Positions 335 through 33,824 of a stretch of DNA of 46,589 nucleotides are shown in pieces; the stretch's first letter is position 1, and each line of letters begins with the position of its first letter. The notes beneath the pieces were generated by a model. That model was not told the origin of the DNA, did no database searches, and saw only the letters and a program-made list of their open reading frames with translations. Both the position numbers and the translations under genes were made by a program. Source of the stretch: Desulfobulbaceae bacterium (lineage in GTDB: Bacteria; Desulfobacterota; Desulfobulbia; Desulfobulbales; VMSU01); assembly GCA_013792005.1 (NCBI GenBank), contig VMSU01000084.1:1-46589 (forward strand), in the 5' to 3' direction.

Positions 335-373
335 GGATCGACCGTTTTACATACCAACCACCGAGGTTACACG

Positions 374-4548: not shown

Positions 4549-4597
4549 TAGCGGATGGGGAAACGTAATAGAGAATAATGTCCTTGGAGACAAAACT

Positions 4598-5713: not shown

Positions 5714-5775
5714 TGGGCTGTGCAAGGGGACAAAAGGGAAAAATTGTACTATATAATCTTCTCATTAGAAAGTAG

Positions 5776-6849: not shown

Positions 6850-6869
6850 TGACCGAGGCTTTTTCTTTT
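6841..6869 (+). terminator. Candidate intrinsic terminator after the acyltransferase
   Basis: The bases CCCCGGT (6841-6847) and ACCGAGG (6852-6858) form a seven-pair stem with one mismatch and an AGTG loop, followed by CTTTTTCTTTT. The stop codon lies inside the hairpin. It would separate the first five genes from the MBOAT/AlgJ-like pair. Confidence 0.4.
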
Positions 6870-7019
6870 GATAATTTTTCTTCTTCTCAATAAGTTATTT
6901 AAGAAAACCATCCTATTGCCACGCTGTCGGCCTTATGACTCAAGTTGCATGAAAAACTTATTCCGCCTGTCTTCTGATGAATAACGAACGAAGGCAAATC
7001 AAGGTGTTGTATTGAAACT

Positions 7020-9595: not shown

Positions 9596-9918
9596 TGGGA
9601 CCGTCAAGGGTTTTCCGGGGGGAGATGTTGATAAGTCCGATTTCTTTAGATTGTGGCGAGATGTGTAAGGGGGCAGGGTCTTTGTCGGATGGTAGTGCTT
9701 TTCGTAGATTGATCAGGGGGTAAGGAGATCCTTGAGGTAATGACATTGACAACAATAGTCTGCCCTGCTAAATCATTGTTAATGAGGATAATATTATGGT
9801 TGCTGGGGGGCAGGTCCTGGATTCCTTAATTGCTCTTGGCACGGAAGGGGCGCGGGTTGGGTCTTTTAGTCGTTGTCAGTCACAGTTTTCATAGCCGTTG
9901 AGATAGAAGAGAGAAGAG
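9596..9918 (+). promoter_or_regulatory. Intergenic region before wzm with candidate promoter
   Basis: This 323-base gap holds no credible gene. A perfect TTGACA lies at 9746-9751, followed after 17 bases by TAAATC at 9769-9774, a weak -10 box. A transcript from here would have a leader of roughly 140 bases. An AGAGAAGAG stretch gives the ribosome-binding site just before the ATG at 9919. I see no hairpin or repeat of note in the rest. Confidence 0.35.
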
Positions 9919-14001: not shown

Positions 14002-14004
14002 TGT

Positions 14005-15525: not shown

Positions 15526-15601
15526 TATAGGCCCCTAGCGGGTTTGATGGTTGGGATAATTTCAAAACCCCTTATAACTTGTGATGTCATGGGTTAAGGA
15601 T

Positions 15602-16609
15602 TTAGTGGCTCTTGGTTTTGTGCGATTGGAAATGAGTTTTGAGCTGACTAACTTGGGTGCCTTTGCCCAGATGGTCAATTTCAATCCGTTTAATTCTGAT
15701 CAAGGCCTCTTCTATCAGGCGGCGATTAAAAGAGATGACATCACCAATAAAACCCATAACTAGAACTTGAAAGCCAATCATAAGGAGAACACTCCCCAGG
15801 ATCAAAGATTGGATGTGACCATCACCAAGTCCTTTAATGTAAAAGAAAAAGTATCTAACCATTGGCACTAATCCGCCCACCATAATGATCAGACTCATGA
15901 TGAAAAAGTATCGCAGCGGCTGGTGCATGGCGTACATGCGGGTCATAGTGTTGAACTGGTTGATGACGAAGCTCGGAATGTTTTTAACCAATCTTGATTC
16001 GCGGGTTTTGGGGTTGGTGCCAATGCCTACGCTGGCTACCGCCAGATTGCGTTTACCGGCCTGGAGGATGGTCTCCACCGTGTAGGAGTAATGGGTCAGG
16101 ATATTGAGCTGCATGGCGGCGTCGCGGGAGAAGGCCCGGAAGCCGCTGACAGCGTCCGGGATGTTGGCTCCGGAGAGGATGCGGACAATGGCGCTGCCGA
16201 ATTTCTGTAACAGTTTCTTGTGGAGGTCAAAGTGGGGGATGGTGTCGGTCTGGCGGTCGCCGATGACAATGTCGGCTGTGCCATTGACAATTGGGGCGAC
16301 CAGCTTGGCGATGTCTTTGCCCTGGTACTGGTTATCTCCATCAGTATTGACGATGATATCCGCCCCTAGGCGCAGGCAGGCATCAAGGCCGATGCGGAAG
16401 GAGGCGGCAAGCCCCTTATTGTTGAGGTTGCAGACGATATGATCCACGCCGATCTCTCGGGCTACCTCGACGGTGCGGTCGGTGCTGCCGTCATCGATAA
16501 TCAGGATCTCGACCTGGTCGATGCCCTCGATCTGGCGAGGAATATCGGCCACAGTCTGAGGCAGGGTATGTTCTTCATTGAGGCAGGGGATCTGGACGAT
16601 GAGTTTCAT
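15602..16609 (-). CDS. GT2 polyprenyl-phosphate glycosyltransferase, membrane-anchored (DPM1-like)
   Basis: A 335-residue protein from the ATG at 16609; the open frame runs further upstream to 16735, but the GT2 fold begins exactly here (MKLIVQIPCLNEEHTLPQTV). It shows IIDDGSTDRT, then NTDGDNQYQ in the DxD position, DIVIGDRQ, and a DAVSGFRAFSRDAA acceptor loop, all as in dolichyl/undecaprenyl-phosphate mannose synthases. Two hydrophobic segments close the C-terminus (FFIMSLIIMVGGLV and ILGSVLLMIGFQVLVMGF). It probably loads a hexose onto undecaprenyl phosphate for later transfer in the periplasm. It is the first gene of the minus-strand transferase set. Confidence 0.9.
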   Translation of the reverse strand: MKLIVQIPCLNEEHTLPQTVADIPRQIEGIDQVEILIIDDGSTDRTVEVAREIGVDHIVCNLNNKGLAASFRIGLDACLRLGADIIVNTDGDNQYQGKDIAKLVAPIVNGTADIVIGDRQTDTIPHFDLHKKLLQKFGSAIVRILSGANIPDAVSGFRAFSRDAAMQLNILTHYSYTVETILQAGKRNLAVASVGIGTNPKTRESRLVKNIPSFVINQFNTMTRMYAMHQPLRYFFIMSLIIMVGGLVPMVRYFFFYIKGLGDGHIQSLILGSVLLMIGFQVLVMGFIGDVISFNRRLIEEALIRIKRIEIDHLGKGTQVSQLKTHFQSHKTKSH

Positions 16610-16814
16610 GATGGCGTGCCTGAGCGTTTGAAGTTGTTGTAGCCCTCTGTCCTGGCGGGTATCGATTGCCAAGGAAGGGAAATTGTAGCTAATAGTTGGC
16701 AGTCTCGTTGTCTGGTGCCTTGACAGCCATTGCAAGGAGATGCGACGCCACTGGGGAAGAAATTTTGGTTCGTCTTCATTCGGTTTACTCCCCGTTCACC
16801 AATCAAGAGGCGAT

Positions 16815-18035
16815 TCATCTCCTGAAGCCCTCAAAACACCAGCGGATCGCTTCTTGGTCACTTTTACTTACCGCTGCTTGAGTCATCTCTGACTCCCAAT
16901 CCTGGACGGTATTTTCGATCTGGTCGATAATCTCATGAGCCTGTTCCTGGCTCAAGCTGAACCGTTCACACTGGCTGAGGAGATTTTTTGCCGACGCCAT
17001 CGAGCCCTGATCTCCGATGTTTAACGCCAGGTGGAAGGTATCCTGTGCTCTCCTGCGGGCAGGAATCGGTACGATATCGTACGCCGGAGAGAGCCGCCAG
17101 TCATTGTGATAGATGAATCCGTGATTGCGGAGATGGTCGTCCTCGTTTCTGACAAATATATTGAAGACCATCCTTCGAAAAAGTTGATGGTGATCTTCCT
17201 GGACGTGGCTGACAAATTTACGCATGTGGCTGGCGATCTCAGGATATGAGCCGCGTTCAAGTTCATCAAGATCGAGATTGCTCAGGGCAAAGGCGCTCAT
17301 GAATGGTAGGCGTCGTCCACGCTCCCGGTCGAAACGCTTGATCAGGTAGATTGATCGTCCTGCTACTGACTCAAGGCGGATCTCCGGGACCTTGATCCCT
17401 GCTTTTTTGGCCAGGGTCATGGTGGCGTATTCAATGCCTGGATATTTTACCGCGGTCTTACTGCTCTCAAATTTGGCGATCCACTCTTCGTTATCAATGG
17501 TCACCGTGCATTTCGGTTGCGCGCCGCCAAGAGAAGTCCCCTGACGGAGCAGGTGCAGGATTTCCGGGGGCAGTTCCTGGTCGTCGAGGGCCTGGTCAAT
17601 AATCGTGGCCACCTTGGCTAGATCGGATAAGGAAATGGCCTCTTCTTCCATGGTCGTGGCTTTTTCCGGGGTCGCACCAAAGGAGATCGCCCCTACTGCA
17701 TTGGTGGAAATCAGATCGATAAACTCATAATCCTTCAAGGTCCCGAAGGGCAGGCCAAGGTGTTTAGCCATGATGTACTTGCCCCAGCTGTCTGGGAGGA
17801 CATCACGAAGGATGCCAAAGATGCCGCCGTTTATCCGGGTAATGTACTTATTGCCGGTCAGGGGCAGATTGATCGGATCGATGGCAATGGCGTTCGGGCG
17901 TTGGACGTAGCGTCGTCCGTATTGGAAAGAGCCCACACCAAGCTCGATATCCAAGGTAAACAGTCCGGCAGGAACCGATTCTTTTTCTTCCGGAAGATCG
18001 ATAAAAACGATCCTCTCGAAGACATTAGAAGTCAA
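16815..18035 (-). CDS. hipA: HipA-family toxin, Ser/Thr kinase
   Basis: A 406-residue protein when read from a TTG start at 18035, which has an AAGGA site eight bases upstream and overlaps the end of hipB by 11 bases; the longer frame to 18203 would run inside hipB. The N-terminal HipA subdomain is seen (VGSFQYGRRYVQRP, FGILRDVLPDSWGKYIM), then SLGGAQPKC of the P-loop/phosphorylated Ser region, WIAKFE with the ATP-binding Lys, the catalytic RNEDDHLRNHGF and the metal-binding AYDIVP. HipA kinases halt growth by phosphorylating targets such as aminoacyl-tRNA synthetases. All key residues appear intact, so it should be active and held in check by HipB. Confidence 0.92.
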   Translation of the reverse strand: MTSNVFERIVFIDLPEEKESVPAGLFTLDIELGVGSFQYGRRYVQRPNAIAIDPINLPLTGNKYITRINGGIFGILRDVLPDSWGKYIMAKHLGLPFGTLKDYEFIDLISTNAVGAISFGATPEKATTMEEEAISLSDLAKVATIIDQALDDQELPPEILHLLRQGTSLGGAQPKCTVTIDNEEWIAKFESSKTAVKYPGIEYATMTLAKKAGIKVPEIRLESVAGRSIYLIKRFDRERGRRLPFMSAFALSNLDLDELERGSYPEIASHMRKFVSHVQEDHHQLFRRMVFNIFVRNEDDHLRNHGFIYHNDWRLSPAYDIVPIPARRRAQDTFHLALNIGDQGSMASAKNLLSQCERFSLSQEQAHEIIDQIENTVQDWESEMTQAAVSKSDQEAIRWCFEGFRR

Positions 18036-18339
18036 GACGCTTTTCCTTTTTTTCACGGACCCGATGCGGGAGCCGCTGCTTTTCCAGGGCTTGGCCGATG
18101 TGGTCGTCTTCTGGATCAGCAAAGCGTAAGGTGTAGTTAAGTTGGTAAACTTCAAGCGCGGCAAGATAGGTCTCGAATCTGACTGACGGGTCTCCTGCCT
18201 CAATTCGGCGCACTGAGGATACCGATGTGCCCATCATCTCCGCAGCTTGTTTGACACTCTTTTTCCGTCGTTTTCGAGCAATTTGCAGATTATTGCCGAT
18301 TTGGTGAAGTCTGGACTGCATCTCATGAGAAAGGACCAC
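18025..18339 (-). CDS. hipB: HipB-like antitoxin, XRE-type DNA-binding protein
   Basis: A 104-residue protein with an XRE helix-turn-helix: IGNNLQIARKRRKKSVKQAAE, then MGTSVSSVRRIEAGDPSVRFET. The start codon is GTG with a strong AGGAG site eight bases upstream. It precedes hipA with an 11-base overlap, the standard antitoxin-first order. The product should neutralise HipA and repress the operon by binding the operator. The C-terminal tail is strongly basic and disordered-looking (REKKEKR), which differs from the short E. coli HipB tail. Confidence 0.9.
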   Translation of the reverse strand: MVLSHEMQSRLHQIGNNLQIARKRRKKSVKQAAEMMGTSVSSVRRIEAGDPSVRFETYLAALEVYQLNYTLRFADPEDDHIGQALEKQRLPHRVREKKEKRLDF

Positions 18340-18678: not shown

Positions 18679-19785
18679 TCAGTCGCCATACTGTCGATCC
18701 AGCCACTCCCGGTAGGAGCCGTCCATCACGGCCCGCCACCATGACTCATGGTCGAACATCCAGGCGATGGTCTTGCGGATGCCGGTCTCAAAGGATTCCC
18801 GGGGTTCGTAACCTAATTCGGCGCGGCATTTGGCGGCATCGATGGCGTAGCGGCGGTCGTGGCCTAAGCGATCTTTGACAAAAGTAATCAATGATTCTGC
18901 TGAGTTTCCCTGACTGGCCGGGGCTGAGGGAAATCTGCCGGGGAGATCCTGATTTGTGGCAAAGGCCTCATCTACCAAGCGACAGATCAGGCGGACGATG
19001 TCGATGTTGGTCCATTCGTTATTGCCGCCGATATTGTAGACCTCACCGATCCTGCCCTTGTTCAGCACCAGGTCGATTCCCCGGCAATGGTCATCCACAT
19101 AGAGCCAGTCTCGGATATTCAAGCCGTCGCCGTAGATCGGCAGGGGTTTACCGTGGAGGATGTTGACGGTCACCAGCGGAATCAGTTTTTCGGGGAATTG
19201 ATAGGGGCCATAATTGTTTGAGCAGTTACTGGTGGAGATATTTAGGCCATAGGTGTGATGGTAGGCGCGGACCAAGTGGTCGGAGCTCGCCTTGCTGGCC
19301 GAGTAGGGTGAGTTAGGGGCATAGGCTGTTGTTTCGGTAAAGGCCGGATCGTAAGATCCGAGGGAGCCGTAAACCTCGTCGGTAGAGACGTGGTGAAATC
19401 GGTGGTCACAGCCGGAGCCGTTGTCAAGCCATACCGACTTTGCTGCCTTGAGTAGAGTGTGGGTGCCGATGACGTTGGTCTCGATAAAGGCATCGGGCCC
19501 GTGGATGGAGCGGTCGACATGGGATTCGGCGGCAAAATGGACGATGGTGTTGATTTCCTCTTCTTTGAGCAGGCGCGTTGCCAGCTCAAGATCAAGGATA
19601 TTGCCGTGGACAAAACGATAGTTAGGGTTTTCCTCGGCAGGGGTAAGATTTGCGAGGTTCCCGGCATAGGTCAGTGCATCCAGCACCATCACCCGGTCGG
19701 TTGGGTGGGTTGCCAGCCAGTAGTGAACAAAGTTTGCGCCAATAAAACCGGCTCCACCGGTAACAAGGATATGGGATGAGGGCAT
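18679..19785 (-). CDS. rfbB: dTDP-glucose 4,6-dehydratase
   Basis: A 368-residue extended short-chain dehydrogenase. It has the NAD-binding GGAGFIG at residues 10-16, AAESHVDRSI, the active-site STDEVYG and the YSASKA motif holding the catalytic Tyr and Lys. It converts dTDP-D-glucose to dTDP-4-keto-6-deoxy-D-glucose, the second step of dTDP-L-rhamnose synthesis. The ATG has a TAAGGT site upstream. It is last in the rfbA-rfbC-rfbD-rfbB set, 80 bases after rfbD, with a hairpin repeat in that gap. The length is slightly over the usual ~355 because of an insertion near residue 295 (PSAPASQGNSAE). Confidence 0.96.
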   Translation of the reverse strand: MPSSHILVTGGAGFIGANFVHYWLATHPTDRVMVLDALTYAGNLANLTPAEENPNYRFVHGNILDLELATRLLKEEEINTIVHFAAESHVDRSIHGPDAFIETNVIGTHTLLKAAKSVWLDNGSGCDHRFHHVSTDEVYGSLGSYDPAFTETTAYAPNSPYSASKASSDHLVRAYHHTYGLNISTSNCSNNYGPYQFPEKLIPLVTVNILHGKPLPIYGDGLNIRDWLYVDDHCRGIDLVLNKGRIGEVYNIGGNNEWTNIDIVRLICRLVDEAFATNQDLPGRFPSAPASQGNSAESLITFVKDRLGHDRRYAIDAAKCRAELGYEPRESFETGIRKTIAWMFDHESWWRAVMDGSYREWLDRQYGD

Positions 19786-19832
19786 GAGCGTACCTTATTG
19801 GGGGGTAAATATAACGTATTGTAATATGGTAG

Positions 19833-19858
19833 GTCGGGTTAGCGTAGCGTAACCCGAC
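19833..19858. repeat. REP-like palindromic hairpin between rfbD and rfbB
   Basis: GTCGGGTTA (19833-19841) and TAACCCGAC (19850-19858) form a perfect nine-pair stem around a GCGTAGCG loop. The flanks and the core match, from memory, a palindromic intergenic repeat widespread in proteobacterial genomes. Only one copy is present in this window. As RNA it could stabilise the rfbACD part of the message or reduce read-through into rfbB. Confidence 0.6.
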
Positions 19859-19865
19859 AAAGGTC

Positions 19866-20756
19866 TTACAATTCCTTAAGCATCTTTCTCAGCGCCACCC
19901 GCCAGTGGCTTGGCTGCCAACCCAAGGCTGTCCACAGACTGGTCTTATCGAGCACCGAGTAGGGAGGGCGTTGGGCCGGAAGGGGGTAGTCGCTGGTGTT
20001 GATGGCCCGAACTGTTGGCTGGGTGGTGATGAGATGTAAGGCCAAGGCCTCTTCCATGATTGCCACACTGAAATCATACCAGGAGGCTACCCCGGCATGG
20101 GTCCAGTGATGGACGCCGTTGATCCCCTCAATCGCTACAGACCATATTGCCAGAGCCAAGTCGTGAGCCCAGGTGGGGGTGCCGATTTGATCGGCAATGA
20201 TCGAGACCGAATCTCGTTCCTGCAAGAGACGGAGCATGGTCTTGACAAAGTTGTGTCCGTGGCTGGAATAGACCCAGGCCGTGCGGATGATCGTCGTGTT
20301 CTCCCCCCCTGTAATTGCCATGATCTTCGATTCGCCGAGGCGCTTGCTTTGGCCATAGACACCGATGGGATTGGGCGGGTCATTGGGCAGATAGGGTGAT
20401 GATTTTTGGCCGTCGAAGATGAAGTCAGTGGAGATATGGATAAGGTGAATTCCTCTCTCGTGGGCTACTTGGGCCAGAAACTCCGGCCCCTCACTGTTGA
20501 CCTGGAAGGCCCGCGCCGAATCTTCTTCTGCCTTGTCGACCGCGGTATAAGCGGCAGCGTTGATGATTACGTCCGGGGCAAGGGTTGCGATTGCAGCAGC
20601 TACTTTACGTGAGTCGGTGATGTCAAGGTCTGCCGAAGATAGAGGGGTGAGGAGCACCCCAGGCGGCATCGTGCGTTGCAGTTCCCAGCCCAACTGGCCG
20701 CCGGCGCCGGTAAGCATGATTTTTTTTGGGAGAGCTTCTCCGCTGATTTTAGTCAT
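19866..20756 (-). CDS. rfbD: dTDP-4-dehydrorhamnose reductase
   Basis: A 296-residue protein from the ATG at 20756, which overlaps the last eight bases of rfbC; the open frame extends upstream but the fold starts here. It shows the nucleotide-binding GAGGQLGWEL, then INAAAYTAVDKAEED, STDFIFDG and the YGQSKRLGE motif with catalytic Tyr and Lys. It reduces dTDP-4-keto-L-rhamnose to dTDP-L-rhamnose with NAD(P)H, the last step of the pathway. The product would feed rhamnosyltransferases of the adjacent glycan loci. Confidence 0.95.
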   Translation of the reverse strand: MTKISGEALPKKIMLTGAGGQLGWELQRTMPPGVLLTPLSSADLDITDSRKVAAAIATLAPDVIINAAAYTAVDKAEEDSARAFQVNSEGPEFLAQVAHERGIHLIHISTDFIFDGQKSSPYLPNDPPNPIGVYGQSKRLGESKIMAITGGENTTIIRTAWVYSSHGHNFVKTMLRLLQERDSVSIIADQIGTPTWAHDLALAIWSVAIEGINGVHHWTHAGVASWYDFSVAIMEEALALHLITTQPTVRAINTSDYPLPAQRPPYSVLDKTSLWTALGWQPSHWRVALRKMLKEL

Positions 20757-21297
20757 AAATTTCGGCCTCGGTGAACAAGACCCCCTCTGCATCTTTGGTG
20801 GAGAGCACTGGGGCCGCGCCATTCACCAGGGGCCAGTTGATCCCAAGCGCCGGGTCGTTCCAAAGGATGGTACGTTCGTGGGGCGGAGTGTAGAAGTCGG
20901 TGCATTTGTAGAGGAACTCGGCGGATTCGCTCATTACGTAAAATCCGTGCGCGAATCCGGGGGGCACCCAGAGCATTTTGCGGTTGTCGGCGGATAATGT
21001 TTCCCCCACCCATTGGCCAAAGGTCGGGGAGTTTTTTCGGATGTCCACGGCCACGTCAAATACTTCGCCGCTGATTACTCGGACCAACTTGCCTTGGGGG
21101 TGTTTGATTTGATAGTGCAGGCCGCGGAGGATTCCTTGGCTTGAGCGGCTGTGGTTGTCCTGGACAAATGGGTGCGAGATGCCTGCCTCGGTAAAGACTT
21201 GCTGCTGCCAGGTCTCCATGAAAAAACCGCGGTGGTCGCCGAAGACCTTGGGCTCAATTACGATTACGTCTGGGATCCGGGTCGGCAAAAACTTCAT
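20749..21297 (-). CDS. rfbC: dTDP-4-dehydrorhamnose 3,5-epimerase
   Basis: A 182-residue cupin-fold epimerase, the family's usual length. Key segments are [27 protein letters not shown] with the catalytic His, [18 protein letters not shown], and [13 protein letters not shown]. It epimerises C3 and C5 of dTDP-4-keto-6-deoxyglucose. Its ATG overlaps the rfbA stop (ATGA) and its stop overlaps the rfbD start, so the three genes are translationally coupled. Confidence 0.96.
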
Positions 21298-22205
21298 TGG
21301 CGTGTCTCCCCGTCCGAAGGCAGCGGGGATTGAACAGAGTCTTCATCAATAATTCTGAGCAGGTATTGGCCGTAGCCGTTTTTTTTCAGTGGTTCGGCTA
21401 AGCTGGCCAACTGTTTTCGGTCGATGTAGCCCATGCGATAGGCGATCTCTTCGAGGCAGGCGAGCTTAAGCCCTTGGCGGTCTTCCACAACCTTGATGAA
21501 GTTGGCGGCGTCGAGCAGTGAAGCATGAGTGCCGGTGTCCAGCCAGGCGGAACCGCGCCCCAGTCGGACTACAGTCAAGTCGCCACGCTTGAGATAGGCA
21601 TTGTTGATGTCGGTGATCTCCAGTTCGCCGCGGGGTGATGGCTTGATCTGTTTGGCAATGGAGACGACATCGTTGTCGTAAAAGTAGAGACCGGTAACCG
21701 CGTAGTTGGATCTGGGGTGTTCCGGTTTCTCCTCAATGGAGGTTACCCGTCCCTGCTCATCAAAGCTGACCACGCCGTATCGTTCAGGATCTTTGACATA
21801 ATAGCCGTAGACCGTTGCTCCACGGGTCAGTTTGGCGTTTTCTTGCAGGATCTCGGAAAAGCCGTGGCCATAGAAGATATTATCGCCCAGGATCAGGCAG
21901 ACAGTGCTCGTGCCGATAAATTCCTCACCGATCAGAAAGGCCTGGGCCAGGCCGCCCGGTTCAGGCTGGATGGCGTACTGGATATCGATTCCCCACTGGC
22001 TGCCGTCGCCAAGGAGTTTCTTGAACTGGGCGTTGTCTTCCGGGGTGGTGATGATCAGGACTTCACGGATACCAGCCAGCATCAGGATAGCGAGCGGATA
22101 GTAGATCATCGGTTTGTCGTAGATCGGCATCAACTGCTTGCTGACCGATTTGGTCAGAGGGTAGAGCCGGGTGCCTGAGCCACCGGCGAGGATGATTCCT
22201 TTCAT
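21294..22205 (-). CDS. rfbA: Glucose-1-phosphate thymidylyltransferase
   Basis: A 303-residue nucleotidyltransferase. The [11 protein letters not shown] signature lies at residues 8-18, followed by [16 protein letters not shown], then [11 protein letters not shown] with the metal-binding Asp, and [20 protein letters not shown]. It makes dTDP-glucose from dTTP and glucose-1-phosphate and commits flux to dTDP-rhamnose. It is the first gene of the rfbA-C-D-B set. Confidence 0.97.
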
Positions 22206-22448: not shown

Positions 22449-23669
22449 TTACTCCTTCAGCTTTTCACACTTCAGGGTAGCAAGGATGGCCAGCCCGTCC
22501 GGGGTGAATTTGCCGCCTGTCTCTGCCATGATGGCCTTCGTGGTCATGAACTTACCGCTTTCCACCTCCGTTTCTTGCAGGATGAACGGTCCTTCGTGGC
22601 GGCAGCGGAAGACTCGGCCCCATACCTTGTTTCCTTCGTCAGCGAAGTAGGTATCGATAAGGTGTTCCATATCTCCGTTGATCCCTAGCTCCTCGGCCAG
22701 CTCACGCTGCGCCGATTCCTCGTAGGTTTCTCCGGCAAGGACTACTCCGCCGGCAGCGATATCGAAATATCCGGGATAGATATCCTTAGTGGGAGTACGT
22801 TTCTGGACGAAGATCTCCCCGTAGTGATTAGTGACCAGAATATAACACGCTCGATGAATGAGTCGGTGGCGGCGCATCTCAGAGCGGGGGGCTTGGCCGG
22901 TGACCTGGTTCTCTTCGTCGACAATGGCCACAATTTCGTCTCTGGAGGCGGTGCTTGGCTTTGGTTGTGGGATGTTGAGGCAGGACAGCAGTGTGTGCCA
23001 AAGCAGGGTGGCGATCTCATGTTGTTCCGACACAGAAGAGAGAAGCTTCTGGTTGATCTCCACTTCAATCCCTAGATAATTGTTTTGGGTGTGATGTTTT
23101 CGCAGCGTGGTGGCCAGGCCGTCGCTTGCTCCGCGGTAGGGGGCGTTACGGTGGATACATAGATCAGGGCGGCGTGCGGTTAAGGCATGTTGCCAACGGT
23201 GACACACTTCCTGTTCTTTAGGTCGTCGGCTGTCGTAAAGCAGGCCGAGATCGGTTTTTCTTATCGTGTTGCCAAGTACCGGGGTGAAGCTGTGGATGGC
23301 CAGATGGATAACCTGCTCTCTTTGCTCTAGAGCAGTACCGATTACGGTATTGACCAGTTCGCGGTGGGGGAGATAGTGCTTTTGAATGACTCTCTCCCGT
23401 TCCATAGGGTGCAGGGTGCGGCTGAAGTTGGAAAAAAGGTCTTTGTGGCTCGGAGATCTGTTGGTGTCAATCAACAGCCTGCTGGTGGTGGTGAAAAAGA
23501 GTGGGGCGCGCAGTGCTGATGCTAGTATTTCAGCTACTTGCAGGGCGCCAAGGTCAGAGCCGCGATGGCTATCAAGTACCTCTTCCTGCCCGATAAAAAG
23601 CGAGGTGTATGGCGCAGGTACTATGTTGCCGCCATGTTCGCAGCTGATGACAATAAACGGTCGGATCAT
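22449..23669 (-). CDS. N-formylglutamate amidohydrolase-like domain fused to a YfcD-like Nudix hydrolase
   Basis: A 406-residue two-domain protein. Residues 1 to about 235 match the N-formylglutamate amidohydrolase family, zinc amidases of the peptidase-like phosphorylase/hydrolase fold: ISCEHGGN (9-15), DSHRGSDLGA (33-42), AIHSFTP (124-130), LLYDSRRP and GIEVEINQ (200-207). Residues 244-400 form a Nudix domain that resembles E. coli YfcD (DEENQVTGQAPRSEM, KDIYPGYFDIAAGG). The Nudix box is perfect: Gly308, Glu314, Arg322-Glu323, Glu326-Glu327, Gly329. The linker is short. It is last in a four-gene set, overlapping the upstream ligase gene by four bases. The amidase probably cleaves an acyl-glutamate or similar amide; the Nudix part would cleave a diphosphate. 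Substrates are unknown. Confidence 0.88.
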   Translation of the reverse strand: MIRPFIVISCEHGGNIVPAPYTSLFIGQEEVLDSHRGSDLGALQVAEILASALRAPLFFTTTSRLLIDTNRSPSHKDLFSNFSRTLHPMERERVIQKHYLPHRELVNTVIGTALEQREQVIHLAIHSFTPVLGNTIRKTDLGLLYDSRRPKEQEVCHRWQHALTARRPDLCIHRNAPYRGASDGLATTLRKHHTQNNYLGIEVEINQKLLSSVSEQHEIATLLWHTLLSCLNIPQPKPSTASRDEIVAIVDEENQVTGQAPRSEMRRHRLIHRACYILVTNHYGEIFVQKRTPTKDIYPGYFDIAAGGVVLAGETYEESAQRELAEELGINGDMEHLIDTYFADEGNKVWGRVFRCRHEGPFILQETEVESGKFMTTKAIMAETGGKFTPDGLAILATLKCEKLKE

Positions 23670-24895
23670 GCGAACATTTCGCCCTTGGCCAGGCAGTTGC
23701 GGAGCTGCTCGTAGAGAGTGGAGAGGCTCGCGCGGTCAGGGTTTTCGCCTGCCGCTTTCAGTATGCGGCGGGCCAGTGGTCCGTGTGTCAGAAGGTGGTC
23801 GAGCGCGACCCTGGTGTCGATTTCGGCAGGCACGGTTTCTTCGGCCAGATGCTGCCATAGTTCGCCTGCGGTTATTGTAGGGGCATTGATGCCGAAGAGA
23901 CGGAGGTAGTCAGCGTTCTTGATCCGAGCCTGATCGGCATCACGGATGGTGGTGAGCAGGATATCTGAAAGGGGCGTAACCGGCACTGCTTTTTGTGTTT
24001 CAAAGGAGTTCCAGCGTTCAGCTGCCAGGGCGCGTAGCACAAAGACGATGGCAGTGATGATCGCCAGATCTGCGGCCGGGCACTCCTGGATGTCGAGGGT
24101 TCGGATTTCGATGGCTGAGCGCTCAAAGCGAGCGATGGCCCCTCGGGAGTTCAGCCACTCGTTCTGGAGGATGCCATCAGGGTCGTGGGGTGCAATATCT
24201 CGGTAATTTCGTTGAAGAATGGTCTCCTCGTATTGATGGCGCGTGTACACCGTCTCCGGGATTATCGCCCCGGTGAGCGAGGGGATGCGTTGCTGGTTGT
24301 GACGGTAAAACTCAAGTCGGTTGTCTAGCAGGCCGGTGGCCCGACCTTCAACAAAGGGAGAACTGGCGGCCAAGGCGGGCAGGATAGGCAAGAGGAGGCG
24401 GATGGCGGCGTGCAGCCTGCCAAATTCATCATCACCGTTAAAGGCCAGGTTGAGGTGGACGGATTGGAGGTTCGACCAGCCATGTCCCTGGCAGTTGAAG
24501 ATGCGGTTGTAAGCCTTGTACACTGCCCGGTAGCCATGGGGCCAGAGCTTGGTCTCTCGGTAGGGGTCCATCCACGGGTGCATGGCGGATGGCAGGAGTG
24601 TGGCATTCATCGGCGCCAGCAGGCGGTTCATGGCTGTCACTTCTCCTTGGAGCCCGAGGGCAAGGCCTGCAAGATTTACTGCCGGGCCTGCGGTCTTCAT
24701 CTCGATCACGTGCAGGGCCAGTTCGTTTGACCACTCGAAGGCGCCCCGTTCCACGTCGTTGGTCAACTCACCTGCCGCAGCAGTTAGCAGTTGATCGGCG
24801 ATGGGTAGGACATCGAGCGTGTCCTGATGCACAATCATATATTCGAGTTCGATGCCGAAACCTGCAAAAATGTGGGGAGTTTCAGGAGTTACCAT
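23666..24895 (-). CDS. GCS2-family carboxylate-amine ligase (YbdK-like)
   Basis: A 409-residue member of the glutamate-cysteine ligase type 2 family, of the glutamine-synthetase-like fold. It begins FGIELEYMIV (residues 13-22) with the metal-binding Glu pair, then FEWSNELALHVIEMKT, LLPSAMHPW, QSVHLNLAF and FERSAIEIRTLDIQECP near residue 260. These enzymes use ATP to join a carboxylate (often the gamma-carboxyl of glutamate) to an amine. The ATG has a GGGAGGGA site and overlaps the RimK-like gene by seven bases. Being next to a second, unrelated amide ligase suggests that two amide bonds are made on one product. Glutathione synthesis is unlikely given the neighbours, but cannot be excluded. 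Confidence 0.9.
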   Translation of the reverse strand: MVTPETPHIFAGFGIELEYMIVHQDTLDVLPIADQLLTAAAGELTNDVERGAFEWSNELALHVIEMKTAGPAVNLAGLALGLQGEVTAMNRLLAPMNATLLPSAMHPWMDPYRETKLWPHGYRAVYKAYNRIFNCQGHGWSNLQSVHLNLAFNGDDEFGRLHAAIRLLLPILPALAASSPFVEGRATGLLDNRLEFYRHNQQRIPSLTGAIIPETVYTRHQYEETILQRNYRDIAPHDPDGILQNEWLNSRGAIARFERSAIEIRTLDIQECPAADLAIITAIVFVLRALAAERWNSFETQKAVPVTPLSDILLTTIRDADQARIKNADYLRLFGINAPTITAGELWQHLAEETVPAEIDTRVALDHLLTHGPLARRILKAAGENPDRASLSTLYEQLRNCLAKGEMFA

Positions 24896-26367
24896 GTCCC
24901 TCCCCGATCATTGCGGTGTTCGATGCGCCGCAGAAAGACCCGCATGATCCTGAGGTAGAGTTCCTCTTTAAGGATAGCGTCTTCGACTCCGGCGTCAATG
25001 TTGGGGTTGTCATTGATCTCGATGACATAGAATTTTTTTCCCACCTCTTTGATGTCAACACCGTACAAGCCGTCACCAATGAGATTAGCGGCTTTGAGCG
25101 CGGTGCGGATCAGTTGGTCCGGGGCGTGTTCCACCGGCATGGTGGCGTAGGTGCCGTCAGCAGTTTTGGTTCCGCTATCGTCCCGTTTGATGATCTGCCA
25201 GTGTTTCTTGGCCATGAAATACTTGCAGACGAACAGCGGCTGGCGGTCGAAGATGCCGACCCGCCAGTCAAAGGAGGTGGGTAGGAACTCCTGGGCAATG
25301 ATGAGGTCCGATTTGGTCAGCAGTTTAGCCACTTGGGATCTGAGTTCTTCAGGGGTCTCCACCTTGACCACGCCTTGCGAGAATGACGAGTCCGGCTGTT
25401 TCAGGATACAGGGCAAGCCTAAGCGCTCAACCACTTCGGTGGTATCCTTATGAACGATTACCGTTTTGGGGATCAGGATCTTGTTGCGTTCCAGGACTTC
25501 GGCCTGGAAGACCTTGTTGGTGCATTTGAGGATCGATTCAGGGTCATCGACCACCACCATCTTCTTGGCTAAAGCACGGCGAGCGAAGCGGTAGGTATGA
25601 TGATTGACGCTGGTGGTCTCTCTGATGAAGAGGGCATCAAATTCAGCCAGGCGACCGTAATCGTTCTTGTCAATGAACTCGGCATCCATGCCTAACGATG
25701 ATGCCGCTTGGGCAAAGTGATGCAGAGCCCGTTCTCCTGATGGTGGTTCCGGGTCCTTGGGATCTTGGAGGATGGCAAGGTCGTAGCGGTTCTGGGCCCG
25801 GCGCTTGACGATCCGGCGGCGGCCCATGAAGTATTCGCGGGCGACAGTCACCACGAAATCATGGTGTTCAGGCGGGATCTCGCTGGTGGGGATGGGGGTG
25901 ATGTGCTGCAGATACCACTTGGCGTTCTTGTCGTTGTGGACAAAAAAGGCACGAAAGAAAGGCGCTTGGAATTGGCGGAACAGGTGCTGGCTTAAGCGGT
26001 CGTGCTGCTTGGCTACGTTATGGCCGAAGTAAACGCTTAACGTGAAGTCCTTGGAACGAATATGGGACAGGCTCTTCTGGATGAGTTGGTCCGCCTCATC
26101 GGAGACGATGCGAATAATGGTCTGGCTCTTAAAGTCCTGAATGGTGGTGATGTCGGGCAGGGGCTTGTGGCCACGGGCGGCGGCCAGGAGCGAGACGTAA
26201 TAGCCGGTGGTTTGGTAGCGGTAGTACCGGCAGAGGTTGAAGACCTTGGCGCTTTTCAGCTTGGCAAAGGAGGGGTCGGTCAGATAGGAGCGGGCCGCGA
26301 CCAGTTCGATCCCTTCAATTTCCAGGGGCCAGTCGCTGGGGTCATTGACAACGATGAGAGTTAGCAC
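24889..26367 (-). CDS. RimK-like ATP-grasp ligase with N-terminal RLAN domain
   Basis: A 492-residue protein. The GTG at 26367 is chosen because AAGAAGG lies six bases upstream and the domain begins there (LTLIVVNDPSDWPLEIEG); an ATG at 26421 would overlap the previous gene by 80 bases. Residues 1-165 match the RLAN domain, an uncharacterised module found in front of RimK-type enzymes. From about residue 205 an ATP-grasp fold follows: PCILKQPDSSFSQGVVKV, IIAQEFLPTSFDWRVGI and the metal site VIEINDNPNID near residues 448-458. RimK enzymes add glutamate or other amino acids to a carboxyl end of a protein or small molecule. It overlaps its neighbours by 26 and seven bases. Confidence 0.92.
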   Translation of the reverse strand: MLTLIVVNDPSDWPLEIEGIELVAARSYLTDPSFAKLKSAKVFNLCRYYRYQTTGYYVSLLAAARGHKPLPDITTIQDFKSQTIIRIVSDEADQLIQKSLSHIRSKDFTLSVYFGHNVAKQHDRLSQHLFRQFQAPFFRAFFVHNDKNAKWYLQHITPIPTSEIPPEHHDFVVTVAREYFMGRRRIVKRRAQNRYDLAILQDPKDPEPPSGERALHHFAQAASSLGMDAEFIDKNDYGRLAEFDALFIRETTSVNHHTYRFARRALAKKMVVVDDPESILKCTNKVFQAEVLERNKILIPKTVIVHKDTTEVVERLGLPCILKQPDSSFSQGVVKVETPEELRSQVAKLLTKSDLIIAQEFLPTSFDWRVGIFDRQPLFVCKYFMAKKHWQIIKRDDSGTKTADGTYATMPVEHAPDQLIRTALKAANLIGDGLYGVDIKEVGKKFYVIEINDNPNIDAGVEDAILKEELYLRIMRVFLRRIEHRNDRGGTW

Positions 26368-27091
26368 GATGGGCCTTCTTAAGGTGTTTTGGCGGTTGAA
26401 GGATGAGGAAATTAGCGTCATGGGTCAGGACGCCAAGGAGAATGGCGCTGATGACCCGGTCGATGTGGATACTGTAATGATGGTCGGATGAGACCGGATT
26501 TTTGTGGTACGGATCGGCGACATCGATGGTCCGCTCATCGGTGTCGTAGCCGGAGAGGACCACAAAATGCCCGGTCGGTTCTCCTCGCAGGTCGTCGTCC
26601 TGGCCGTGAGGCCCATACTCCCGCATGGCACGGTAGAGGTAGGTCGAGCTTAAGCCGGTGATGATTGGCAGGGATTTCCGCAATGGGGTGCGGATCAGGC
26701 TACGGCTCAAATCCTCAAAGTGAAGCATGCCGCCGAGGGCGAGGAAGTCGATATAGCCGCGAGCCACGGCAAGAAGACGGTCGTCGTCCTTTTTTAAGGT
26801 GGCTTGAGCCAGGAGTTTGGCCCGCAGATCGTGGAGTGGCAGAGTGAACCATGTCGGATCAAAAAAATGGAGATTATAGGTAAAGAGGCTGGCGCTATAT
26901 CCTCGTCGCAAGGCATGACAGGCCAGGTAAACGGCGAGTGTGCCTCCGGTGCCAAGGGTGGTGACCTCATTGATGACTTCGTCAAGATCCACGATGTCTC
27001 CAAAATAGTGATACACGGCATGCAGGCAGGTCGGGCCGCAGGTGGTGTCATTCGGTTGGGGCAGGATGGAAAGCTTGAGGTCTGATTTCAT
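26342..27091 (-). CDS. C39-like papain-fold cysteine peptidase
   Basis: A 249-residue protein with a peptidase-C39-like catalytic layout: Cys18 in QPNDTTCGPTCL, His175 in GHFVVLSGYD and Asp193 in VADPY. There is no signal peptide, no ABC-transporter domain and no adjacent transporter, so it is not a typical bacteriocin exporter peptidase and probably acts in the cytoplasm. It heads the four-gene overlapping set with the RLAN/RimK ligase, GCS2 ligase and amidohydrolase-Nudix protein. It could trim a precursor peptide, act as a transpeptidase, or hydrolyse the amide product. It lies 26 bases after the beta-glucan synthase gene, so it may share its transcript. Confidence 0.85.
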   Translation of the reverse strand: MKSDLKLSILPQPNDTTCGPTCLHAVYHYFGDIVDLDEVINEVTTLGTGGTLAVYLACHALRRGYSASLFTYNLHFFDPTWFTLPLHDLRAKLLAQATLKKDDDRLLAVARGYIDFLALGGMLHFEDLSRSLIRTPLRKSLPIITGLSSTYLYRAMREYGPHGQDDDLRGEPTGHFVVLSGYDTDERTIDVADPYHKNPVSSDHHYSIHIDRVISAILLGVLTHDANFLILQPPKHLKKAHRANSHRCQ

Positions 27092-27117: not shown

Positions 27118-29757
27118 TTAGGTGGTCGAGGGTATTGTCGGCTCAGTCGCGATGTTTTTTTTCTCCTGCGGTGGCAGAGTCGTGATCAGGGAGACTACGA
27201 TTGCTGCCAAGTAGGGAAGTGATTGAATGAAGAGTACAGTCGCCCAGAGTGTTAAGCTCTGCCTGTCCTCACCCTGACGGAATAAGATGCCCAAAACTCC
27301 GATCCAGAGGGCGACGGCGATCACGATCTCTTCGGTGACCGCAGCCAAGGCCCGAACCACAGCCGGGCTGTCTTCACATTTCGGAGTCCGAAAGAAGGGC
27401 AGGTTCTTGGTAACAAAACCGGTGAGCACGGCCTTGGCAATGGTGTGAGAAAGGGCGAGACCGGTTAGGGCTGCGGCCATGGTTAATTTTATCGAGGTCC
27501 GCATGTGGAAGCGGTAGAGATAGGCCAGCTTAACCAGTTTAAAGACAAAGAGCAGGATCGGCGGCAGCATGAAGAAGGCAAGCGGAGGATCAACATGGAG
27601 GGGGTCGATGATCATCGCGCCTGACCAGATGATGGCGGCAAAGGTGTAGAAGAGGTTGATGCCGTCGGCTATCCACGGCAGCCAGCCAGCCAGAAAATGA
27701 TAGCGTTGACCTCGGTCGAGTTTGGTCTCCACGCTGCCGAACAGTTCCCGATAATGGCGTTTTATGATTTGAATCGCGCCATAGGCCCAACGGGCGCGCT
27801 GTTTCTTGTAGTCGAGGAAGGTGTCGGGCATCAGGCCTTTACCGTAGCTCTCTTCGACATAGGCGCCCTCATACCCATGTTCGAAGATCTTCAGGCCGAG
27901 TTCCGCATCTTCAGTAATGCACCACTCTGCCCAAGCGTCCACCGCCAAGAGCACGGATTTTCTGACCATGGTCATGGTTCCATGCTCGATGATGGCGTTA
28001 CGATCATTACGGGTGACCATGCCGATATGGAAAAATCCTTCGTACTCGGCTTTGCACATGGTCTTGAAGACGCTTTCGTCACCATCGCGATAGTCCTGGG
28101 GCGCTTGGACAAAGCCGATGTTCGGGTTGGCGAAGTGGGGGATCAGGTCCTTGAGCCAGTTTGGGCTGACCTGGTAATCACTGTCAATGACGGCGATGAT
28201 CTCGGCGTCAGGGGCGGTATTGGCGAGGGCAAAATTCAAGGCCCCAGCCTTGTATCCGGCTAAGGGATCGACATGGAAGAAGCGGAAGCGTGGCCCCAAC
28301 TTAGCGCAATGGGCCTCTACCGGTTGCCAGACTGCCGGATCCTTGGTGTTATTGTCCATGACCACGACTTCAAAATTGGTGTATTCAAGTCGTGACAGGG
28401 CATCTAGTGTCTCATTCAGCATCTCCGGGGGTTCATTATAGGCGGGAACGTGTACGGAGACCTTGGGGAGGAAGGCTTTTCCGTCCGGCCCTGGCACATG
28501 GGTGGCAAGAGAAAAGGGGCGTCTTCGTTTGGTGGACCACGAGGCCTCGGCCATCTCATGGGCTTCGGCCAGGAGGACCAGGGTGATGCCGAGATAGCCA
28601 AAGGCCAGAATGATGCCGACGATAACAGCCATTGGGGTAAGGTACTGGTTGGCGTAATCGTAGCCGGCCCATACCAGCCCGACTCCGATGCCGTTGGCGA
28701 TGGCGGCCAGGAAGCTGCGGCCTCGACTGCGTAGGGTGGAGCTGTCGATTAAAAGCATCCACAGGGTGGCAATGGCCACCGCGATGGAGATGGCAGCGAG
28801 TATCCGCCACTGAGGGATTTTGACGACCGCTTGGGTGAAGTTGAATTTGGGGGTGCGGAAGATGTTGTACACTCCCCAATAAGCGCCGACAGAGCCTTCG
28901 TTGTCAGCTTTCCAGGTCTGGTCGAAGGCCTCCATGATGAAGTAGTCGTAATTCTCTTTTTCGGCCAGAGCCAGGAAACGGCGTAAAAATGAAGCTTCGT
29001 TGGCCTCGCTGGCAATGGCCTGGTTTCTGGGGCGCCCGTTGCTGGGCCAGCCAACCTCGGCAATTAAAATCGGACTATTGGGAAAGGTATCTTTGACAAT
29101 CTGATAGCAGTTTTTTATGTAACCGATTGCGTTGTCGAGGCCGATTCCCTCCCAATAAGGCAGGAGGTGGATGGAGATGAAGTCGGCATGATCGCCGAGT
29201 TCGGGATTGGCAATCCAGACATGCCACGGTTCGCCGGTGCTGACCGGCACCGAAACCTGGGATTTGACTCGGTCGATGTAGTTGCCAACCTCTTCCGCAT
29301 TAAGTTCGCCGGTGAGGATAGTCTCATTGCCGACCATTACCCGGGTGACCTTGTCGGGATAGGCGTTGGCAATATCAATCATTTTCTTGATCCGTTCCTC
29401 ATTTTTGGCCAAGTCATGGGTGATCCAGACTCCTAAGGTGATCTTGACATCGTGCTTGCTGGCCAGTTCCGGGATGTCAGCTAAGGTGCCGATGATGTCG
29501 TAAGTGCGGAGATTCTTCACCTTGCCGTCCAATAGGGCGATATCCTGTTCAATCTCTTCCCGGGTGGGGAATAGTCCTTTGTTTGGATTGTTCCCTGGGC
29601 GAATGGGTGAGAAGGACATTCCGACCACCGATGTTGGCCATGGTGGCTCCTGCAGAGGCCGATTGGTGAGGCCCCACACCGAAAAGGTGACCACGGCAAA
29701 GGCTGCTGCCACCAGGAGGTTAGTCAGGTTGAGCTGTATTTTCATAGGGTTACGCAT
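27118..29757 (-). CDS. GH17-GT2 fusion, beta-glucan synthase (NdvB/BglS-like)
   Basis: An 879-residue inner-membrane protein. After a membrane segment (residues 11-30) comes a GH17-like domain with both acids in place: Asn144-Glu145 in MVGNETIL and Glu234 in ILIAEVGWPSNG. Three hydrophobic segments (320-400) lead to a processive GT2 domain with VHVPAYNEP, Asp468, Asp525-Ser-Asp527, Thr-Glu-Asp at 615-617 and QRARW at 653-657. Several more membrane helices close the protein. This order matches the cyclic/linear beta-(1,3)-glucan synthases of rhizobia and pseudomonads, where the GH17 part remodels or cyclises the chain made by the GT2 part. Neither candidate ATG (29757, 29745) has a good ribosome-binding site. 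Confidence 0.92.
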   Translation of the reverse strand: MRNPMKIQLNLTNLLVAAAFAVVTFSVWGLTNRPLQEPPWPTSVVGMSFSPIRPGNNPNKGLFPTREEIEQDIALLDGKVKNLRTYDIIGTLADIPELASKHDVKITLGVWITHDLAKNEERIKKMIDIANAYPDKVTRVMVGNETILTGELNAEEVGNYIDRVKSQVSVPVSTGEPWHVWIANPELGDHADFISIHLLPYWEGIGLDNAIGYIKNCYQIVKDTFPNSPILIAEVGWPSNGRPRNQAIASEANEASFLRRFLALAEKENYDYFIMEAFDQTWKADNEGSVGAYWGVYNIFRTPKFNFTQAVVKIPQWRILAAISIAVAIATLWMLLIDSSTLRSRGRSFLAAIANGIGVGLVWAGYDYANQYLTPMAVIVGIILAFGYLGITLVLLAEAHEMAEASWSTKRRRPFSLATHVPGPDGKAFLPKVSVHVPAYNEPPEMLNETLDALSRLEYTNFEVVVMDNNTKDPAVWQPVEAHCAKLGPRFRFFHVDPLAGYKAGALNFALANTAPDAEIIAVIDSDYQVSPNWLKDLIPHFANPNIGFVQAPQDYRDGDESVFKTMCKAEYEGFFHIGMVTRNDRNAIIEHGTMTMVRKSVLLAVDAWAEWCITEDAELGLKIFEHGYEGAYVEESYGKGLMPDTFLDYKKQRARWAYGAIQIIKRHYRELFGSVETKLDRGQRYHFLAGWLPWIADGINLFYTFAAIIWSGAMIIDPLHVDPPLAFFMLPPILLFVFKLVKLAYLYRFHMRTSIKLTMAAALTGLALSHTIAKAVLTGFVTKNLPFFRTPKCEDSPAVVRALAAVTEEIVIAVALWIGVLGILFRQGEDRQSLTLWATVLFIQSLPYLAAIVVSLITTLPPQEKKNIATEPTIPSTT

Positions 29758-31712: not shown

Positions 31713-33824
31713 ATGCAATTGATACTTGCCCTCATCTCCCTCGGTGTTCTGACCATGACTCCGCTCATTTGGCGCTTCGCGCACAAGGGTGGCGGAGAAT
31801 TCATCGGGCTCTTGTCAGATGGCGGAGTGGGCATCCTGCTCTTTGTTCTGCTTCTCTGGATCCCCCGTTGGCTGCGGGTGGTTCTGGCATTGATCTGGAC
31901 TGGCTTTGTGATCGGCGCGGGGGAGTTGGTGACGGCAATGAGTCGTCTGCCTTCTTGGCAAGACCTGCACTACCTGGCCAATGCCGATTTTGTCAAGAAT
32001 ACCACGGCCAATTTTAACCTCTCGTCACCCGCCCTGGTCTGGGCGATGTCTCTTTCCGCCCTGCTGGTCTTTTTCCTGCCCTTGGCCAGACCAAAATGGC
32101 GATATGCCTTCCCTCTTCTTGTTTCAGGCATTGCCGTCCTGCTGTTCCATAATCACTTGAGCCTCCAGAACGATGATCAGAGCGTGGTCGCTCGCCACAA
32201 TGCCGTGCACTGGTTTATTATCGATGCCTTTATTACGCCGTCGCCATTTACCGCCGAGGATCTGGCTGACTACCATCTTCCCCAAGGACTGAATCAGTTC
32301 GATCTCGATGGCGCTCCCTTGCTGGTCAAGGGAACGGCCAAGAATGTCCTGATCATTACCCTTGAGGGGATCCCGGGCCTCTATTATCCTGAAATCAGCA
32401 AGGCCATGGGGGTTGATTCCTACAAGGTCTCCATGGACCGGCTGGCTGAGAGCACTCAAGGGGCTATGCTGATCCCCGACTTCACCGCCCATAGCCATCA
32501 GACCATCCGTGGCCTCTACGCCTTGCTGTGCGGCGACTTCAGCAAACAATCCTGGGATACGCCCAAGGCGGTGGAGTTGACCGGCAACCTGGATCGGGCC
32601 AAGGAGTGTCTGCCCGCTCAAATGGCCGAGCATGGTTGGGATACCCACTATCTGCAAGGGGCCGGGCTCTCCTTTATGGGCAAGGACCGCTTCATGCCCT
32701 TGGTTGGATTCCAAGAGGTCCATGGCAATGAGTGGTTTCAGGAGGCCAACCCTTATCCCTTTGAATGGGGGGTGATCGACTCGGTTTTCTTTCGTGGCGC
32801 ACGGGACTATATCGCCGGCCTTCAGAAGAAGGATCGGCCCTGGATGTTGACTCTGCTGACGGTCGGTACCCACCAACCGTACGCCGTGCCTGACGATATC
32901 GTTGCCAACTATCCTGACCGTCGGGCTGCCACCGTGGACCTGCTGGATCAGGCAGTAGCCGAATTTATCGAAGGTCTGCGCCAGGATGGGGTACTCAAGG
33001 ACACAGTGGTCATCATCACCTCCGACGAGTCTCATGGCTCGGAACTGGCCGATTGGGTCAGCAGTTGGGTGGTAGGGATCGTCCTTGCCCCGGAGGCAAG
33101 AGCGCTCCCGCGCCTTAAACAGGGGGGGTATGGTTTGGTGGACACCGAAGTCTCCATCCTTGATTACCTGGGGCTGCCAATCCCACGGGGAGTGGTCGGC
33201 CGAAGTCTTTTTCGTGACTACGCCACGCCGAGGGAGATGGTCTCCTACACCGCCTCCAAGCGTCGCTGGCACACGGTTGACAACTTTCGTTATGAGTGTT
33301 CTGACGATGGCCGTTGCCGGGTGGGTAAGGCAGACAGTCTGTTGGGGCCGCCACCGGCTGAGTTTCTGCGGGATAAGGAGGGGAGGAGGAATCCGATCTT
33401 TCTCATCGCCGCAACTCTGGACCACAAGCTTATTCCCCAACAGGGGGTACGGGTGCTGAAGTTCGCCAGTGGAGAGATTCGTCACCTGCCTGAGAAGATC
33501 AAGAATGAGTGGTCCGACAATCTGGTGGGTGCGCAATATCTCGATTTTCCGGCCGATTCCACGGTGCGTGTTTCAATTAGAGTGAAGGTGATTCAGGCGC
33601 CTGCGGAGGGGGTGCAGCTTAGGCTAGGATTTAAACAGTGGGAGGGGACCATCAAAAGCATTCAGCATCCCGGTTTTCCTCTCCTCCACGCCCAGGAGGA
33701 AGGAAAGCTTGATTTCTCCTTTGACAACCAGGAGGCCCGTCAGTCTTTTTCCTTTCATCTCCTGGGGGAGGGCAAGGGCGCGAGCATTCAGATGGAGAGG
33801 TTTGACGTTACCATTGAAAACTGA
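31713..33824 (+). CDS. LTA-synthase/OpgB-like membrane phosphotransferase (sulfatase superfamily)
   Basis: A 703-residue protein with four to five N-terminal membrane helices (residues 1-150) and an alkaline-phosphatase-superfamily domain (about 205-530). Metal and catalytic residues are visible: Glu218 in ITLEGIPG, Thr264 in HSHQTIRG as the expected nucleophile, Asp438 and His441 in TSDESHG. The C-terminal ~150 residues form an extra beta-rich region I cannot assign. Relatives transfer phosphoglycerol or phosphoethanolamine from phospholipids to glycans (MdoB/OpgB, LtaS, EptA). Lying next to a glucan synthase, phosphoglycerol transfer to beta-glucan is a fair inference. It starts 48 bases after the GH-A-like gene in the same direction. 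Confidence 0.85.
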   Translation: MQLILALISLGVLTMTPLIWRFAHKGGGEFIGLLSDGGVGILLFVLLLWIPRWLRVVLALIWTGFVIGAGELVTAMSRLPSWQDLHYLANADFVKNTTANFNLSSPALVWAMSLSALLVFFLPLARPKWRYAFPLLVSGIAVLLFHNHLSLQNDDQSVVARHNAVHWFIIDAFITPSPFTAEDLADYHLPQGLNQFDLDGAPLLVKGTAKNVLIITLEGIPGLYYPEISKAMGVDSYKVSMDRLAESTQGAMLIPDFTAHSHQTIRGLYALLCGDFSKQSWDTPKAVELTGNLDRAKECLPAQMAEHGWDTHYLQGAGLSFMGKDRFMPLVGFQEVHGNEWFQEANPYPFEWGVIDSVFFRGARDYIAGLQKKDRPWMLTLLTVGTHQPYAVPDDIVANYPDRRAATVDLLDQAVAEFIEGLRQDGVLKDTVVIITSDESHGSELADWVSSWVVGIVLAPEARALPRLKQGGYGLVDTEVSILDYLGLPIPRGVVGRSLFRDYATPREMVSYTASKRRWHTVDNFRYECSDDGRCRVGKADSLLGPPPAEFLRDKEGRRNPIFLIAATLDHKLIPQQGVRVLKFASGEIRHLPEKIKNEWSDNLVGAQYLDFPADSTVRVSIRVKVIQAPAEGVQLRLGFKQWEGTIKSIQHPGFPLLHAQEEGKLDFSFDNQEARQSFSFHLLGEGKGASIQMERFDVTIEN

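Follow-up and report, generated by a model that had tools for sequence, protein, structure and literature searches.

What would a bacterium make, and perhaps unmake, with two unrelated amide ligases and two hydrolases encoded in overlapping genes? The question is raised by a cluster in contig VMSU01000084.1 of a Desulfobulbaceae bacterium (assembly GCA_013792005.1), analysed here over its full 46,589 nucleotides (the window). The cluster encodes a C39 peptidase, a ligase that joins an RLAN domain to a RimK-like ATP-grasp domain, a GCS2 ligase, and an N-formylglutamate amidohydrolase (FGase) fused to a Nudix domain. Comparison across genomes indicates that these genes are inherited together and that in other lineages an acetyltransferase of the GNAT family stands in place of GCS2. 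This exchange suggests what kind of compound may be made.

Layout and inheritance of the cluster

The four genes, all on the minus strand, run head to tail. They encode, in order, a C39/papain-fold cysteine peptidase or amidase of 249 residues with no fused ATP-binding cassette (ABC) transporter (26342–27091; Peptidase_C39_2), the RLAN/RimK amide ligase (24889–26367), a carboxylate-amine ligase of glutamate-cysteine ligase family 2 with a glutamine-synthetase-like fold (GCS2; 23666–24895), and a single protein with FGase and YfcD-type Nudix domains (22449–23669). All of these domains score above curated cut-offs in a Pfam scan of the window proteins. Open reading frame (ORF) coordinates and domains agree with the original prediction of four minus-strand genes overlapping by 26, 7 and 4 bases, given a GTG start at 26367 for the RLAN gene, which the 26-base overlap requires; the first ATG, at 26421, would give an overlap of 80 bases. 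The GTG is the likely start because the RLAN proteins of relatives begin at the same point and an AAGAAGG motif lies six bases upstream. Judged from sequence, the overlaps suggest that the four products are made together.

At least 593 relatives were found among 84,980 species genomes, and the best 80 of these were analysed. These 80 loci, many of them from metagenome-assembled genomes (MAGs) and a few with titles that carry legacy names, represent about 15 named phyla, among them Planctomycetota, Pseudomonadota, Bacteroidota, Nitrospirota and Spirochaetota; the order C39-RLAN-GCS2-(FGase) is kept on one strand nearly without exception. The predicted functional unit thus recurs far outside close relatives. 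The window itself is contig 84 of a 4.0-Mb genome that is 97.6% complete, and the nearest named relative is a Desulfobulbaceae MAG.

Co-occurrence, to which the original prediction had looked, is also found at the level of whole genomes. The RLAN family is present in 19 of the 58 related genomes, and separate whole-genome searches place the GCS2 and C39 subfamilies in 18 genomes each, the same 18, with none lacking RLAN. Presence or absence of the three families is therefore identical in 57 of the 58 genomes, the exception being genome G046. Fisher's exact test gives p ~4e-14, a value to be read more as description than as probability since the genomes are related. The GCS2 and papain-fold peptidase genes adjoin in all 18 GCS2-bearing relatives, and C39 is present in 92 of 98 GCS2-type loci. 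As expected of genes that travel together, the pairwise distances of RLAN, GCS2 and C39 across loci correlate with r of 0.71–0.80 (permutation maxima, 0.14–0.34). The arrangement is far beyond chance, and the genes almost certainly form one co-inherited unit.

No fifth family recurs with these genes: clustering of the genes within 10 kb gives only the four cluster families beyond local groups. The other neighbour clusters are an arginine operon (Pontibacter only), small clusters of near relatives, and probable antisense ORFs, as which clusters 4–6 (12, 8 and 6 loci) were set aside by strand and position. The original prediction saw no transporter, nonribosomal peptide synthetase or precursor-peptide gene; in the same 10-kb clustering none of these recurs, nor does an exporter, secretion partner, carrier or redox gene. 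No conserved ORF of 18–80 residues, such as might encode a carrier or precursor, was found within 700 bases across the 80 loci.

The hydrolase gene at the end of the cluster is less constant. Counted with its own profile, FGase is present in 49 of 98 GCS2-type loci, which is too low a figure since some loci or contigs are truncated; no GNAT locus has it. The amidohydrolase that the original prediction included in the set is thus optional in GCS2-type loci. Inclusion of the Nudix domain does not hold, as the FGase-Nudix fusion occurs only in the window's genus (loci L188 and L189), all other FGase loci being without it. Being confined in this way, the Nudix domain is a local addition, and it was rejected as a component of the mechanism.

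GNAT in place of GCS2

The main result comes from loci that lack GCS2. RLAN is found in 63 of 274 sampled gammaproteobacterial genomes, and in most of the 38 loci taken from these 63 for analysis GCS2 is absent; a RimI-like GNAT domain is encoded beside RLAN instead, usually fused to a C39-like DUF3335 domain. The 145 RLAN loci from all sources divide into 98 with GCS2, 38 with GNAT and 9 that lack the two, no locus having both; the absences are upper limits as several loci are short or at a contig end. Just one GCS2 locus contains a GNAT match of at least 20 bits (25 bits). The exclusion extends beyond the locus: in 39 genomes whose RLAN locus lacks GCS2, a whole-genome search finds no member of this GCS2 subfamily at all; as a positive control, the same profile finds 18 of the 58 relatives. 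DUF3335 is absent from the five GCS2-type genomes tested.

GNAT and RLAN are closely linked. The two genes are separated by 0–23 bases, or overlap by a few, in L101, L103, L020, L027, L028 and L175, and in G046, the sole exception among the 58 relatives, GNAT lies ten bases after RLAN. In locus L184 (7704–9650) GNAT, RLAN and ATP-grasp are joined in frame in one protein of 649 residues. The GNAT partners score nearest RimI, one of them above its cut-off.

On the RLAN tree most GNAT-type loci fall in one strongly supported group, with L101/L103, L106 and L029 placed among the GCS2 types. A single GNAT-type clade is rejected only marginally (approximately unbiased (AU) test, p 0.04), for which reason one main swap with a few separate swaps is likely but not proven. 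GNAT enzymes make an amide from acetyl-CoA, and GCS2 enzymes make one from a carboxylate and ATP. The simplest account of two unrelated amide-forming enzymes that exclude each other at this position is that the RLAN ligase extends a capped building block provided by either enzyme. GCS2 and GNAT are thus reasonably likely to be functional alternatives, and GCS2, which GNAT replaces beside RLAN, probably does the acyl-cap job.

Hydrolases also adjoin some GNAT-type loci, as FGase does GCS2-type loci, and differ by gammaproteobacterial lineage. M20 ArgE-like enzymes occur in seven (L145, L155, L157, L161, L162, L178, L181), M14 enzymes in three (L146, L148, L158) and DUF2817 in three (L144, L149, L164). 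These zinc and M20 hydrolases would suit a product that is broken down by hydrolysis later, but may be lineage-specific neighbours.

Part of this picture has been drawn before. Iyer et al. in 2009, and the Pfam text for RLAN (PF14401), reportedly link RLAN to a papain-like peptidase as well as GCS2, with metabolites derived from peptides as the predicted products. The neighbourhood reported there holds the same three families, to which the window adds FGase fused to Nudix; the gene set is less unknown than the original prediction held. A literature search on RLAN, DUF3335, RimK with GCS2, and FGase with GCS2 found no functional or biochemical study. Given this and the reported association, the window's cluster is of a known, uncharacterised kind. 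The GNAT/GCS2 exclusion and the GNAT-RLAN-ATP-grasp fusion are not known to be part of the 2009 work. Mutual exclusion, whole-genome co-inheritance and the fusion protein may be new. DUF3335-GNAT fusions are mentioned in a 2023 review, which cites Iyer et al. 2009 (PMC10318531).

The enzymes, a candidate pathway and its rivals

The RLAN ligase is a protein of 510 residues in which RLAN (156.3 bits) is N-terminal to RimK (PF08443, 41.4 bits). Its AlphaFold2 model (pLDDT, the predicted local distance difference test, 90) matches ArgX, LysX and RimK at Z 25–27, the matches spanning residues 211–508, the ATP-grasp half. These are the nearest solved folds, from which the window's protein differs by its extra N-terminal RLAN domain and by scores far below curated NCBIfam cut-offs: 59 bits against 143.4 for rimK_fam, 59 against 275.6 for LysX_arch and 22.6 against 331 for the RimK model NF007764. 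TIGR03103, the model of the ligase Ngg, is absent among its matches at E up to 0.01, and spermidine ligase is in none of its match lists. In locus L187 (7184–8691) the RLAN gene is split over two overlapping frames with GCS2 and FGase kept, either a pseudogene or an assembly error.

GCS2 (103 bits in Pfam) likewise keeps its fold while standing apart as a subfamily of its own. Its model (pLDDT 95) matches YbdK at Z 38 and plant glutamate-cysteine ligase at Z 34, sharing the YbdK fold over about 345 of 409 residues, with about 15% identity to solved members. The best NCBIfam score, 51.8 bits, compares with the 176.4 that the YbdK subfamily model requires, and every GCS2 equivalog or subfamily cut-off, glutathione-type included, is missed. 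Since both ligases keep the fold matches and score far under the cut-offs, they would work like amide ligases from outside any characterised equivalog. The scores agree with the original prediction that neither is an ordinary glutathione or ribosomal protein S6 ligase.

Conserved positions suggest that all four enzymes are intact. Residues K303, K341, R387, D456, E468 and N470 of the ATP-grasp domain are invariant in the homologue alignment, as are the acidic, basic and amide positions E16, E18, E58, E65, H106, N142, Q144, R256, E263 and R265 of GCS2 in 40 homologues, the papain-type Q12, C18, H175 and D193 of C39 (Peptidase_C39_2, 38.7 bits) in 29, and E11, H12, R64, N70, R71, H122, H126 and E204 of FGase in 21. 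By family and position these are the presumed catalytic residues. Profile (84.4 bits against a cut-off of 28.9, residues 6–209) and catalytic-type residues together assign the FGase half to its predicted family, with Atu2144 its nearest match. The Nudix half (55 bits, residues 241–398) is nearest to Escherichia coli YfcD and scores above the cut-off of that equivalog.

These activities could be arranged as a self-contained cytoplasmic pathway that converts amino acids to a small N-capped dipeptide-like amide at a cost of two ATP. GCS2 would first join a carboxylate, perhaps the γ-carboxyl of glutamate, to an amine to give a capped amino acid. The RLAN/RimK ATP-grasp enzyme would then form the acyl phosphate of the intermediate's carboxyl and couple a second amine. 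The papain-fold C39 enzyme may hydrolyse or transfer the new amide, and FGase may strip the acyl group from a glutamate-like amine and so turn the product over. In other lineages the RimI-like GNAT would supply an acetyl cap in place of the GCS2 reaction. This order of steps is conjectural; the product would be small and probably intracellular, the latter because no exporter recurs beside the cluster.

A precedent exists for such logic. In the N-acetylglutaminylglutamine amide (NAGGN) osmolyte pathway one protein with GNAT and ATP-grasp domains acetylates glutamine and joins a second glutamine, and a peptidase gene lies alongside (PMC8070244; Sagot et al. 2010). The NAGGN trio (the GNAT and ATP-grasp protein Ngg, AsnO and an aminopeptidase) thus shares GNAT capping, ATP-grasp ligation and a peptidase with the RLAN loci and yields an N-capped dipeptide; the L184 fusion follows the same logic as Ngg. 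The RLAN system differs in missing the Ngg model, in having C39 instead of the aminopeptidase, and in its RLAN domain; no asparagine-synthetase (AsnO-like) gene is found in the window's cluster. The RLAN ligase is therefore only said to work, by analogy, like the NAGGN ligase, outside its family. The two systems can co-occur in one genome: NAGGN synthase is found in 7 of 63 RLAN-bearing and 4 of 211 other gammaproteobacteria (p 0.004), and ectoine synthase in 18 of 63 and 20 of 211 (p 0.0003). This enrichment is a hint of osmotic stress and no more, because ancestry, lifestyle and genome size are uncontrolled.

A small N-capped dipeptide-like product is one that we favour at somewhat less than even confidence. 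The broader proposal is more tentative: a phylum-crossing intracellular metabolite, a capped dipeptide and possibly an osmolyte or stress protectant, might be made by a modular pathway whose cap enzyme has repeatedly been swapped between GCS2 (an acid cap at the expense of ATP) and a RimI-like GNAT (an acetyl cap from acetyl-CoA), up to and including a one-protein GNAT-RLAN-ATP-grasp synthase. Several points weigh against the favoured dipeptide-like product. Ancestry, lifestyle and genome size confound the osmolyte enrichment, and fresh water or groundwater is home to many of the carriers. The literature searched describes neither a substrate or product nor a mutant. Two different products that share one ligase could also account for the mutual exclusion, and FGase is found in only roughly one GCS2 locus in two. 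The AU result is borderline, and the outlying GNAT loci sit either on long branches or at forks with weak support. We know of no assigned fold or function for the RLAN domain. Finally, that relatives of RimI and RimK act on proteins would, by analogy, favour protein tagging.

Such tagging is an unlikely explanation but the strongest of the rivals. The RLAN/RimK enzyme would lengthen one end of a protein by amino acids, GCS2 or GNAT would cap this tag or add to it, and the peptidase would take it off again. RimK adds amino acids to ribosomal protein S6, and the nearest relatives of the ATP-grasp domain (RimK, LysX and ArgX) act on protein C-termini. RimI, to which the GNAT partners are nearest, is a ribosomal-protein acetyltransferase, and the GCS2 fold is common to the Pup ligase PafA. 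The argument from relatives is weakened by the scores well under the RimK and LysX cut-offs, and no gene for a target or carrier protein recurs near the cluster; no carrier-like small ORF recurs there in the 80 loci, LysW having been the object of no whole-genome search. A universal target protein also sits poorly with the patchy presence, in 19 of 58 relatives.

Conjugation of a polyamine or an arginine-derived amine, with the papain-fold enzyme as the amidase, is improbable. The model is glutathionylspermidine synthetase/amidase, whose amidase has a papain fold (PMC10318531) and in which an ATP-grasp ligase is likewise opposed by a papain-fold amidase. That enzyme is one fused protein that acts on spermidine, whereas the window encodes separate proteins of other subfamilies, and spermidine ligase is missing from the RLAN match lists. 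Genomic context offers speB, speA and carboxynorspermidine genes preceding RLAN and GNAT in G046, and the arginine operon upstream in Pontibacter, but the former link is found in one genome only and the latter in one genus only. Locus L185 (1197–10670) carries in one direction genes for agmatinase, arginine decarboxylase, carboxynorspermidine synthase and decarboxylase, citrate synthase, the RLAN ligase, GNAT and a SET-domain protein, a possible polyamine link confined to a single genome.

A thiol or redox cofactor related to glutathione, γ-glutamylcysteine or ergothioneine, with GCS2 as first step, is less probable still. The GCS2 family includes γ-glutamylcysteine and EgtA ligases, and the match to the plant enzyme is close in fold, but the window's protein falls under all glutathione-type cut-offs, no redox gene recurs near the cluster, and an acetyltransferase in place of GCS2 would abolish a γ-glutamyl thiol. 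Maturation of a graspetide-like ribosomal peptide with C39 as leader peptidase, although ATP-grasp and C39 enzymes both occur in graspetide clusters, was already disfavoured and has very little chance of being right, there being no conserved small ORF or ABC exporter and just 26 bases between C39 and the next upstream gene in the window.

Surroundings and significance

That upstream gene (27118–29757, minus strand) encodes a GT2 glycosyltransferase with a GH17-like N-terminal domain, similar to β-glucan synthases. It also adjoins the cluster in the same-genus relatives L010, L012 and L015, and because this adjacency is shared within the genus it is probably a genus-level neighbour outside the system. 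Directly downstream (18679–22205, minus strand) lies a dTDP-rhamnose-like set of four genes (rmlA, rmlC, rmlD and rmlB by inspection of translations), which together with many glycosyltransferases and acyltransferases at 317–16735 makes up a polysaccharide locus. Beside these genes, a HipA-type kinase gene and an overlapping small helix-turn-helix-like gene (18025–18339) form a probable hipBA toxin-antitoxin pair (16815–18339, minus strand). Further away are two convergent genes for sulfatase-family proteins, 12 bases apart (31713–33824, plus strand; 33837–35597, minus strand), and a gene for a multihaem cytochrome with repeated CXXCH motifs (37078–38424, minus strand; Paired_CXXCH_1, 245 bits) that resembles outer-membrane MtrC-type domains. 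An Rfam search of the window and four loci found only tRNA-Sec, elsewhere, and no riboswitch clue.

RLAN is carried by about one third of the sampled relatives, by nearly a quarter of the sampled gammaproteobacteria and by many other phyla, and the literature searched names no product for it. If the capped-dipeptide proposal is true, biochemical maps lack a common bacterial metabolite. The exchange of GCS2 for GNAT would then provide an experimental handle, as comparison of the products of both versions could reveal their shared core.

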